A stretch of 64,000 nt of DNA, taken from contig OY540817.1 in assembly GCA_961205875.1 (NCBI GenBank), positions 13,117,001 through 13,181,000 on the forward strand. The letters run 5' to 3'. Positions 49,701 through 55,700 of this stretch are shown piece after piece; the first letter of the stretch is position 1; each line of letters starts with the position of its first letter. The notes below the pieces were generated by a model. It worked only from the letters and a program-made list of their open reading frames with translations, did no database searches and was not told where the DNA came from. A program made the position numbers and the translations under genes. The DNA is from Sialis fuliginosa. Taxonomy: Eukaryota; Arthropoda; Insecta; Megaloptera; Sialidae.

Positions 49701-52700
49701 GCTTTCCTTCCTCTTGTAACTTCAACACGGCGCCACTGATGGCCGTTCTAAATGGAGAATCTATAAAACGCAATTTTAATTATGTAATTAAAACTTATAA
49801 CAACAGATCAACACATTTCTGAATGTGAATTTTAAAGCATATTTTATGTGGCCTCATTGTTTAAAACGATATATTTTTAATTATATGAAAAAGATAATAA
49901 ATTTTATATTTAAAGATGAATATAATATTCTATAATAGAACATTTAAATAATATTGGGACAATTTTTAGTATGTATAACTAAACAGAAACTCGTTTCCTG
50001 CGAGAAAACGTCTAAAAAATAAATATTAAGGTCTTTATATACTACTTCATCATTCTACAATGAACATTGCGTGAAGATAACGGAGAAGCAAGTAATATTC
50101 TGGAATTATGTTATGTAATTAAAAGCAACTTAATTAATCTTTAATTTCAAGTAAAACCAATTAAATAATATATTCACATTTTCAAGATATAGAGCTGCAG
50201 CTAAAACAGTAAAAGTCGCTTAAACCGGCAATATAAAGGTAACTTTTGTCCCATAATAATTGAATTGATATTTGAACAAAAATTATCCTAAATTACTGTC
50301 AGAATATAATCAAAAAATAACAATACGTGATTTTTATGTGAAAATCGCATACTTTGAAAACAACATTTTGTTATGCTTCGACGCAGTAAGTTTTGATAAT
50401 TTATGTCCAAACTATCCAGAGCTAATTTACTACCAATTTTTAAGGGGAAGAAAAATTTATCTGGATCTTGTTGGTAAGTCAAAAATATATGTTTGAGCTG
50501 CAGCTAAAATCGGGATTATTTATAGTGAATTATTATTCACAAAATACTTACTAGGAGGCATTGCAATACCATATCCTTTAGAATCTAGCATTCCACCGAT
50601 TTGAGTCAGTTCGCAATTTCTTTCAATAACGTATTCGATTGAAGTCGACTCCATTAAGAAAGCGTAGCTGCCTTTTCCTTTTACAACGCGTTCCACGCCT
50701 TCGCCATTGCTTGAGGTGAAGACACTAGGTCTAGCTGATTCCATAAAAGACCACATTCTTTGGTAGGTTGTAAAATTTGAGTCCTAAATAAGGATGAAAA
50801 AAGATGTCAGTTTATACAGAGTTGAACATTAGCAAACAAATGTCTTTATAAAGAAATAATAAACATTTATTCAATTATAAAACTTACTCTGAAGAATGCA
50901 GCCGTAGAACCTCCCCTCAGGGCACCATATTTGATCTTAGTTTGCTTTGCAAGATCCTCAGCACTTTCTATTGGCGAGTCCATTCGTTCAACCGTGAGAA
51001 AGGCAGCTAAGTTAGCTGTGTATGAAGATATCATTATAAGCGTGAAGAACCACCACATTCCGGCGACCATTCGCGTAGATACAGCCCTGCAATTGTCAAA
51101 TAAACAAAAATACTTTTAATTTGTTGCTAACGATCCACAGAAAATTATGTTATAAATCAATTTTCATGCATACTTACTACGAGTAAGTATTTGGGTACAA
51201 AATTTAATTTTGCAGCAAGGTTTTTTTGTTTAGTACAAAATATATAAAATTTGAATTTATTTTTATTAATTTATATTTCTTTTCTTATTATTTTTAAGTT
51301 CAAATATTCTCCAATATCTACTTTAATTTATGTATAAAAAATCTTTTTTTTTTTAATTTGATATTTACACCATGCCTAAACATTTGTTAACTTCTGTGTG
51401 TGTGTATGTTTTTAACCTCAGTCAATATTTTCTCACACATAGCGATTGGCATGTTTGGATATTATTGAAGTATTTTAAAATTAAAAATTGCACTTAAAAG
51501 CCAATAATAATTAAAGAAATTTGCCTAGACATAACGTCTGATTTCTTCACAAAACATTTGTCGTGTTGTGTAGTTCAATCAGATTAGCATGAATATAACT
51601 GAAATCGGGAACTAATTCGGACCAAAATGATTTTTGGTGGAAACGTTCTACTAGTATCCCTGATCATTCCACAAAAAGTCCGAGCCAATCCGAGTTGTGC
51701 TACCGCCACCATCTTGAAAAATAACGGACGAGTTACATTTTCCATTGTTTTTCATGTTTTTTTTTCTGAAACCGTTGATTTTACGAATACGGTTCAAAGG
51801 ACTTTTTTTGTAGAACATAAAATTTTAACAAAAAAAAAAAAAATTTACTTGTGGGAATATATCTTGTTGTGTGGGGGTAAGAATATTAACCCTCTTTTTG
51901 TTACTATTGTATTAATCTTGATGTTTTTGGTCTTATTATATGCACAAATATATGATATTTTATAAAGTTTCTTTATAAAATTATCGTAATAGCATCGAGA
52001 GATAGTAAAATTGAAAAAATGCGAAAAAAATATTTTCTCCGTTTTCTATGATTTAAAAAAATCGGTGCTTCTTGTGTTACTATTAAATCGATATTAACGA
52101 CCTTGCATTTATTTTAAAAAAAATTTTATGCTCTACAAAAAGAGTCCTTTGAACCGTATTACGATTTCAGAGAAATACGCGAAAAACTATGAAAAAATCT
52201 AACCCGTCCGCCATTTTTCAAAATGGCGGCGGAAGCACAAGTCGGATCAACTCGAACTTTTTGTGGGATTATCACTAGCAGAACGTTCTGATTGGACTAG
52301 TGTGGAGGACGTTTAAAATTTCGAGAATAGTGTTTTGTTTTTTGATCAAATGATATGATTTCTACGGTGATATTTATTTTTGTTTTTGTTTTAATCAGAT
52401 ATGAGACTTACTTCGGCGCAATGTCTGAACCTTGCTGCATGAGTGACCCGATCGTGAACCAGAGTGAGTTCAGAAGGCTGAACTGGTTCTCGAGCACGTC
52501 TGGCTCCTCAACACAAGGATGGGGGTTGTCCCACTCGTATGGGCTGAACCTGTAACAGCAGCACACAAAACACTTACTTGGGCAAGAAGTCGCAGCCCTG
52601 TTGCATCAGCGACCCGATGGCGAACCACATGCAGTTGAGCAGCGTGAACTGGTTCTCCAAGTGGTCCGGGTTCGGATTGCACGGATGCGGGTTTTGCCAC

Positions 52701-55700
52701 TCGTATGGCGTGAATCTGTGCTCGGCACACATATACACATCATTTTATATGCTTCCAAAATAATTAAAATAAAATAAAACACTCTTGTCGGAAACAATAC
52801 TTATGTTCGACGAATCTGTTTATTATCAATTTATACAGCTAAGGAAATGGATTGTCCTCGACAGATTTTAAAAATGAAACGCTAAATAAAGTGTGCATTG
52901 CGTGTGTAGATGTATAAGAGAAAAATGGATGAATTGCACATGCGTACAAGTCACTTTACGTCGGTTATGCGTGTTATAGAAATGAGTAAATGTATAGAGA
53001 AAGATGTATGAATGTATACAAGTTTATCGGTGTTTTGTATACAACAAAATAAGCTTCACTTCAACCGTGCGGTTATGTGGGTAAGGCACAAACAACTCTT
53101 TTTTAATGAATGACATATAATTGTAAATAAATAATAATGATACGGATTATATAAGTAATATTTATTCATTCATAAGCGTTTATATGAACAGTACTGTTTA
53201 AAGACCGCCCCTCCCCCTGGCGCGTGTTATTTTGAGTTTTATAACTTTTTTGTCTGATTTATTAGATTGAATAGAATATAATAGCCACATAATTATTATC
53301 TTAACTATCATAATTCAGATATATGATCAGTTTTTTAGATATATTATAGTTACTGAAAAAAATACTCTAAGTGATTAATAATATTATATTCCTTTAAACA
53401 TATAGAAAAACTATACCGGGTGCTCCATTTTAATTTCCTCAGTCCAATATCTTGAAAACTGAGCAAGAAGGTACAAAATGTTTTAGAGAAAAGCTGTGCG
53501 TTTCGAGAGGGACATTTATTATTGCTATGGGTTTTTATGGGGCAACATTTTTTTCAAATGGTAACCTGTATTTTTTTATTGTAGACTTTTGTAGGAAACA
53601 TTTCTTTTACAATTTTAGGGCTTAAATCTAAAAAGTGATTGATATTAAATAATTTTAAATCAAATAAAATTAACTTTAATAAAAAATGTTTTATAATTTC
53701 TATTAATTTTGCTTAATATTGTAAAACGATATTTTCTAAAAAAAAAATTCGGGTCAAAGCTGCTAATTTTTTTTCGTAAATTACGAATCTGCAATACAAA
53801 AATATAGATATCCCATAAAAACCCATAGCAATAATAAATGTCCCCCTCGAAATGCTAAAACTTTGATCTTAAACACTTTTCTCCATCTTACATAGTTTTC
53901 GAGATATTGATCTGGGAAAATTAAAATTATAACACCTGGTATTTATATTCCAATCAATTTACATAAAATATTTTATATATTTTACCTTGCAAGAATAAAA
54001 AGCAGTACCGATACTCCCAGATATGCTGTAGCCATGTAAATCCAAACATCCAGAGACAAAGGAGACAGGAAGGAGAACAGATTAGGTGGCTGCTTAATCG
54101 GCTTGCGGTATAATATACTGATCCCGAGGTTCATGAACGGCATCGTGAAGTCCACAGCTTGTTCACGGTCGTAAGTAATTGTCAGATCGGCTATTGCCAG
54201 GTCGGCTTTTTGGTCTAGTAATTCTTTCATCATACCTTGAAGAAAAGTACTTTCTTAAAATCATTTCTAATTTTAAAAATTTAAATAATATAAGCAGATA
54301 TGAAATAAAAATATAAATAGAAAAAAAGTTTACTTTTGTTATTTAATAAACCCTTTCAACCTAAAGTTGCAGTGAGTATTATTACCTATGGTTTATGTTC
54401 TACCCATTATTCCGGAATATAAAAAATATAAGATTTTTTATAAAAATCAATATAAAAAATTTTATACGTTGATAAAAATTATTTTATGAATTATATCACG
54501 AAAATGAAATATAATTTAATATATTGCTCACCATCCCATTCTTTAGTTTCTCTGTTGAGAGAACCATATCTTCCATCAGGAGCTAATCGTATAGTGTAAT
54601 TAAATCCTAACACCTTTGATATTTCATGTATCAAATCAATTGCATATCCTTCAAATTGATCGTTCCCACTTAATTTTTCACTTGAGTCCTTCCTCATACA
54701 ATAAGGAGAGCTCTGAAAAAATACATATGAGACATTCCACATCAATAGATCCAATAAGATTTTCGTTATTAATTTTTGATTAACTCTTAACTTAAAAAAT
54801 CTTTACATATTTTTCTTTTCATGTCAAATATTTTTTGAGGTATGAATTTGCAATTTTCTAAATATGAAAAATTAGAACTAAAGTCGATTAGTATTAATAA
54901 TTTTTTTCGGCAATTATTTCTTTTTTTATTGCGTTTAAACGCTTACCATGGAAAAAATGTTAAACAAAATAACATTTTAGTATGAATGACATTTTTGTCC
55001 TACGATTGAGTTTGAACTTAATTATTCCGTTATATCAATAAAAATCATTTAAATGTTTAATTTAATTAACAATTAATTCCCTATTAAATACAATCTAATA
55101 TTTATAAAAAAAAAAAAAATTCAAGTAAAATTTCGTATTATAACAATTCAAATATTCATTTACCAGAATTGTTGTAACCACAAACGTTTTGTTCTGTATT
55201 ATTTCAACAATTTGCGTGTAAGCTTCTCCATAAGTTCGGGTGAAGTTAACTCCCTCCGTCGAGTTCCATGTGCCGATCTTCTTTAATCCCTCTTTACTGA
55301 GTTCCACTACATCAAGCACGAAGTCACTTCTAAATCCTTGATGGTCGAACTTTATTACTCCTGTTAAACCACGCATTTCAACCTAACGAAAAAAAGAACG
55401 AAATGTCATCAATGTTTATTATATTACGATTAAACGATCTTTGCATCATTAAATTTTAAATAAATATATATAGTATAAATATTGCATTTTGTTGAGGATG
55501 GGGATATCTTAAAATATTTCAACATACAGGATGTCCCACGGGAAGGTGTTGAAACTAATCAGCTGTCATGTTCAAACGGATGCTGTTATTGAAAAACAAA
55601 AATAGCGTTGAAAAAAAGAAAGTCTTCAGTTTTTTATGGATATAAATAAAATTTAATAAAATTTGTGTGCATCAATTTATTTTATTGATGAAAAATATGC

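Follow-up and report, generated by a model that had tools for sequence, protein, structure and literature searches.

The locus described here raises the question of whether a single insect gene for a kainate-type glutamate receptor can make channels with two different pores and, if so, what keeps both pore-coding exons from entering the same mRNA. It lies in a stretch of 64,000 nucleotides (nt) from Sialis fuliginosa (assembly GCA_961205875.1, contig OY540817.1, positions 13,117,001 to 13,181,000 of the forward strand), which we analysed as a whole and refer to as the window; coordinates are counted from its first letter. The gene, which by its sequence is of the KaiR1D type, contains two similar exons, a and b, separated by only 28 nt. 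We consider it very probable that any one pre-mRNA is spliced to a or to b but not to both, and that the two form an old mutually exclusive pair in insect KaiR1D-type receptors, giving subunits that are alike except in the pre-pore segment and the pore loop. The pair and its constant neighbours are arranged as follows:

54235-53986, minus strand: upstream constant exon, encoding part of the glutamate-binding domain, the linker and M1, and ending in phase 2
52715-52578, minus strand: exon a, encoding the pre-pore segment and pore loop; 138 bp, phase 2 on both sides, GT-AG sites
52577-52550, minus strand: the gap between a and b, 28 nt (GTAAGTGTTTTGTGTGCTGCTGTTACAG), with the exon a donor (GTAAGTG) and the exon b acceptor (GTTACAG)
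52549-52412, minus strand: exon b, encoding the pre-pore segment and pore loop; 138 bp, phase 2 on both sides, GT-AG sites
51086-50888, minus strand: downstream constant exon, encoding M3 and the segment after M3

The two exons are adjacent and homologous, with equal phase and compatible length. They share 96 of 138 bases and 32 of 45 residues, and the 26 codons that differ are divided equally between synonymous (13) and nonsynonymous (13) changes. A tblastn search of the window with the exon a peptide returned exon b (E=1.6e-23), the pore of a second receptor gene (36953-36816; E=2.7e-17) and then a match at E=0.78; similarity between the exons by chance is excluded. No third pore copy of this kind was found in the window by tblastn with five pore queries, the sole other strong match being the single, b-like pore of the second gene. 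A preliminary description of this DNA, made from the letters alone, had given the 138-bp lengths, entry and exit in phase 2, the GT-AG sites, the coordinates and both peptides, all of which agree with our analysis. It had also placed the donor of exon a and the acceptor of exon b within the 28-nt gap, where GTAAGT and TTACAG are indeed found, and had claimed that retention of the gap gives an in-frame stop; the retained reading runs to ...FLPK and meets TAA immediately.

The assignment of the gene follows from its relatives. In the modelled part, Pfam matches above the cut-off occur in the order ANF_receptor, Lig_chan-Glu_bd and Lig_chan. The closest whole-length relative among 290 fetched proteins is Chrysoperla carnea GRIK2 isoform X2 (90% identity over 724 columns). 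Because its closest relatives are KaiR1D and insect GRIK2 proteins, the gene is, on sequence grounds, a KaiR1D-type kainate receptor. In Drosophila, KaiR1D assembles into functional homomers (PMC11188076, citing Li et al. 2016). The pore region of form a (71 residues including flanks) is 100% identical to that of Rhodnius prolixus ‘kainate-type subunit 1D’ isoform X1 and of a Cimex model, and the exon b pore region reaches 97% identity to b-form models of a grasshopper and other insects.

Orthologous protein models show how the two exons are used. Two homology searches, of which the best 120 of 1430 and the best 120 of 1362 matches were taken, yielded 184 different proteins, from which we chose by eye eleven same-species pairs of an a-form and a b-form, all of them database protein models. 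Outside the pore unit, the two forms are identical in Schistocerca americana and S. gregaria (848/848 each), Cloeon dipterum (881/881), Macrosteles quadrilineatus (855/855), Euwallacea fornicatus (856/856) and, in a partial model with 312 gap columns, Cryptotermes secundus (525/525). The seventh concordant pair, from Cacopsylla melanoneura, agrees at 812 of 813 positions. Inside the unit, the seven pairs share 32-33 of 45 residues. Four further pairs were rejected as isoforms and are treated as paralogues, with wide divergence outside the unit (Thrips palmi 467/848, Frankliniella 456/815, Pollicipes 399/811 and Hetaerina 553/840).

Since the a and b models match outside the pore unit in seven species, exons a and b are, according to these models, used as alternatives by a single gene. 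Each of them is intact and conserved, and orthologue models use them singly. The claim that one gene gives two pore forms is borne out by the models of these species, and the comparison with other insects that had been proposed shows either exon taken alone in the protein models of all seven. We take the seven to be a mayfly, two grasshoppers, a termite, two hemipterans and a beetle, a spread which indicates that the exon pair is old.

The reading frame offers no protection against wrong combinations of the two exons. Inclusion of both and skipping of both each preserve the frame; because 138 is a multiple of three, nonsense-mediated decay cannot police such errors, and exclusion must therefore arise from splicing itself. 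A frameshift followed by decay as a guard against double inclusion was accordingly ruled out.

The gap itself suggests how splicing could achieve exclusion. Its only adenines are at positions 3, 4, 25 and 27, inside GTAAGT and TTACAG, so that the earlier argument that the gap leaves no room for a branch point holds on the sequence. All eleven adenines listed 12-80 nt upstream of exon b fall in exon a or its donor. The sole adenine from which no AG intervenes before exon b lies 24 nt upstream, within the GTAAGT of exon a, and the best match to the branch consensus, scored with approximate weights, is a CTGAT that lies within exon a, 56 nt before exon b and with three AGs in between. The branch site of exon b would thus be placed either in the donor of exon a, at the adenine 24 nt upstream, or in the body of exon a; if so, an intron between a and b would lack its own branch point. 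We propose that U1 at the donor of exon a and U2 at the branch site of exon b would compete for shared or adjacent bases, and that the first to assemble would win. The 28-nt gap would then block the joining of a to b in this species, for want of a usable branch adenosine.

This arrangement is consistent with published limits. A donor and a branch point closer than about 50 nt are reported to interfere sterically (PMC7969005), and the entire gap, with a branch position predicted from sequence, measures 28 nt. Potential steric interference has been described in 57 (9%) of 629 human clusters of mutually exclusive exons (PMC5740500). A human intron of 43 nt is reported to be spliced (PMC4463651), and the shortest other intron modelled in the KaiR1D-type gene measures 86 nt.

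Several observations weigh against strict exclusion. Besides the approximate branch weights, two tightly joined pore units occur in 43 of the 184 listed proteins, in a pattern count that includes paralogues. Double-unit models labelled ‘isoform X’ by NCBI are found in Anabrus, Bombus, Vespa, Helicoverpa, Spodoptera and Cydia. In Pieris macdunnoughi the double model equals the b-only model with a clean insertion of exon a (898/898 elsewhere, 44 gap columns), and in Rhynchophorus the double and b-only models agree at 496 of 501 positions. Such models reflect either a longer gap in those species, or an impossible intron accepted by the predictor, or real double inclusion. Miscalling of short introns is a possible cause, as gene predictors call impossibly short introns and one published set has introns from 17 bp (PMC5769321).

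Taken at face value, the double models would mean that the exons are alternative but not strictly exclusive, either because a 28-nt intron can be spliced or because some transcripts hold both exons, giving two tandem pore loops. The a-like unit stands first in the insect KaiR1D-type doubles listed, and double inclusion would keep the frame. However, the gap has no usable branch adenosine and is shorter than both the 86-nt minimum in this gene and the 43-nt human intron (PMC4463651), many double models are named hypothetical or predicted, and seven species have clean single models; we therefore regard this explanation as unlikely. For the steric block postulated in the preliminary description, the branch geometry fits; the steric step remains putative, and some orthologue models do join both exons. 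Exclusion could instead come mainly from regulators or RNA structure, exon a having a weak acceptor and being included only with an activator or a favourable fold. Its acceptor is the lowest in pyrimidine of the 13 listed (0.47), and the region spanning a, the gap and b (52400-52760) has a more stable predicted fold than any of 100 shuffles (z -2.9); in this fold, gap positions 7-18 are paired with the intron immediately preceding exon a, and the donor GUAAG with the terminal part of exon a. The GC content at third codon positions is likewise high in exons a (0.89) and b (0.71), compared with 0.22-0.50 in ten of the eleven other exons and 0.71 in one. Yet the fold comes from one sequence without covariation, and regulation of this kind accounts for the choice of an exon more than for exclusion and is compatible with the gap mechanism, so that as the main cause of exclusion we consider it a less probable alternative. 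Third-position GC, the fold and the weak acceptor may bear on regulation.

That one exon is a decaying, disused duplicate is very improbable: the weak exon a acceptor is the only point in its favour, and both exons are open with intact sites, the a pore region being fully identical to two hemipteran models and the b region nearly so to models of a grasshopper and others. An assembly artefact is more improbable still, although two similar blocks do lie near each other, since the blocks disagree at 42 of 138 bases and each resembles the corresponding class from other species. Open frames, intact sites, divergence and class-specific conservation led us to reject both a pseudo-exon and an assembly duplicate, and mutually exclusive use of a and b is the reading we retain. 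As separate observations on this region, UG-rich stretches occur both in the gap and in the intron before exon a, and the third-position GC of the two exons stands against a GC content of 28.5% in the window, for which selection on the RNA or gene conversion is possible.

The consequences for the channel depend on where the two exons differ. Aligned with GluK2 and GluA2 chains, the pore has its Q/R site, which controls calcium permeability (PMC8257547), at the first Q of MQQG. Both window exons have Q at this site and D at +4, so that the Q/R residue itself is the same in a and b. After it, the exons differ at +3 (C in a, S in b), +5 (F and I) and +6 (L and A), and ten further differing positions lie upstream; the statement that the differences flank the Q/R position is correct. 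The Q/R site also controls polyamine block, which is shaped by the +4 region. The altered calcium permeability or polyamine block suggested in the preliminary description is hypothetical, Q at the site and D at +4 being common to the two exons. In this species, exchange of a for b may thus tune the inner side of the selectivity filter, at +3, +5 and +6. No solved insect KaiR1D structure was recognised among the best 60 of 403, 60 of 240 and 60 of 112 structure matches.

Among the listed matches, the Q/R residue varies in the a class. We classed the pore units of the 184 proteins by nearest consensus, which gives loose classes with some paralogues mixed in, and the counts that follow are samples covering part of the 1430, 1362 and 1029 matches. 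The exon-a class has Q in 89, R in 11 and G in 2 of 102 units, and the exon-b class Q in 95 and C in 3 of 98. All ten hymenopteran a-units listed carry R (Dufourea, Vespa, Bombus, Polistes, Mischocyttarus, Apis cerana, Aulacocentrum, Andrena, Osmia and Venturia); the eleventh R-bearing unit belongs to a spider model with an odd structure (Caerostris). Andrena, Osmia and Venturia have single-inclusion R models, and the other seven hymenopterans have double models with Q in the b-unit (7/7); no hymenopteran b-only model occurs among the matches listed. The best listed PDB match of the hymenopteran segment is to R-bearing GluA2 chains (MRQGCDI), whose R occupies the same position. In Hymenoptera, the a/b exchange would therefore change the Q/R residue itself.

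Arthropod kainate genes of the CG11155 type also have models with two pore copies. They are different from the KaiR1D-type gene of the window, and their duplicated unit includes M1, unlike exons a and b. Within the 184 proteins, the units so classed have R in the first copy (16/16) and Q in the second (13/13). Of 122 CG11155-type proteins, 102 carry R followed by Q, 12 R alone, 7 Q alone and 1 R twice, in a count whose pattern can miss units. Models with two copies of M1 plus pore come from insects and crustaceans (P0156, P0185-P0290 and others); seven beetle models are R-only single forms (P0284-P0290), and it is a Bombyx mandarina model that has the R copy twice. In a hemipteran KaiR1D-like paralogue class, the first unit has A at the Q/R site in 5/5 (P0021, P0022, P0037, P0045, P0065) and the second, where listed, Q. 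The G residues belong to a louse protein (P0015) and an unnamed protein (P0110).

From the hymenopteran and CG11155-type counts, it follows at the level of protein models that in some arthropods the identity of the Q/R residue can depend on which exon is taken. A wider hypothesis is that the choice between exons does in arthropods what RNA editing does in vertebrates, with tandem pore-loop exons of differing Q/R-site chemistry in which exon b is fixed at Q and exon a is free to change. It draws on four cases, namely Q/Q with different flanks in the window, R/Q in Hymenoptera, A/Q in the hemipteran paralogue and R/Q in the CG11155-type gene, and we give it even chances.

Several known systems resemble this arrangement. 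Database isoforms of KaiR1D or insect GRIK2 (Schistocerca X1/X2, Cloeon X2/X1, Macrosteles X2/X1) likewise exchange a 45-residue unit and are identical or nearly so elsewhere, but exist as database labels only. The flip and flop exons of the AMPA receptors (GRIA1-4) are also tandem, similar and mutually exclusive exons of an ionotropic glutamate receptor (PMC8257547); they exchange an interface of the ligand-binding domain, whereas a and b exchange the pore. Double inclusion of flip and flop shifts the frame, with flop-flip junctions at 0.7-12% depending on the subunit (PMC8257547), while both a and b are multiples of three. ADAR editing at the Q/R site of GluA2, GluK1 and GluK2 also alters pore-loop residues after transcription (PMC8257547); here the change comes about by exon choice rather than base editing, and both window exons keep Q. 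In exons 4a and 4b of OGDH, as proposed for a and b, the branch point of the second exon is too near the donor of the first (PMC7969005). In birds and mammals, 118-131 nt of intron separate the two OGDH exons, and the branch points mapped in humans lie 25-41 nt from the donor (PMC7969005), whereas the whole gap in the window is 28 nt and the candidate branch adenine is within the donor itself. Branch-point proximity also enforces the mutually exclusive exons of tropomyosin.

The remainder of the gene was modelled with twelve coding exon positions, the a/b pair counting as one, with GT-AG introns and a frame that is open throughout:

59188-46531, minus strand: KaiR1D-type gene, modelled part
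59188-59047, 58070-57903, 56953-56801, 55382-55164, 54712-54532 and 54235-53986, minus strand: modelled exons before a/b
51086-50888, 50783-50552, 49760-49645, 49558-49403 and 46725-46531, minus strand: modelled exons after a/b

Inspection of the list of open reading frames in the window did not reveal the N-terminal exons, which would encode the signal peptide and part of the amino-terminal domain. A possible alternative C-terminus involves exons 49558-49403 and 46725-46531: read-through of the donor after VEER would give VSSILNDT and a stop, as opposed to splicing to 46725. Downstream lies the second kainate-type receptor gene (40515-35191, minus strand), whose only pore (36953-36816) shares an exon with M1, to which it is fused, and is closer to exon b (72%) than to exon a (54%); its partial translation is ~61% identical to KaiR1D-type models over 408 columns. 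A Nup153-like gene with seven RanBP zinc-finger matches is located at 30879-28084 on the minus strand.

Among the open-licence papers listed, judged by titles and the beginnings of abstracts, we recognised none describing alternative pore-loop exons in insect kainate receptors. The main text of an article on a fly's kainate receptors makes no mention of splicing, isoforms or exons (PMC12875582). The isoforms are already present in databases, and mutually exclusive ion-channel exons are known as a kind; distinctive here are the exchange of the pore loop itself and the extreme separation of 28 nt. The gap offers an extreme and simple case for the study of mutual exclusion between splice sites, and the exchange makes splicing and editing as convergent solutions a testable question. 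With a whole pore loop exchanged by splicing, in a form that several insect orders have kept, a neuron would be able to select the pore of its kainate receptors without RNA editing.

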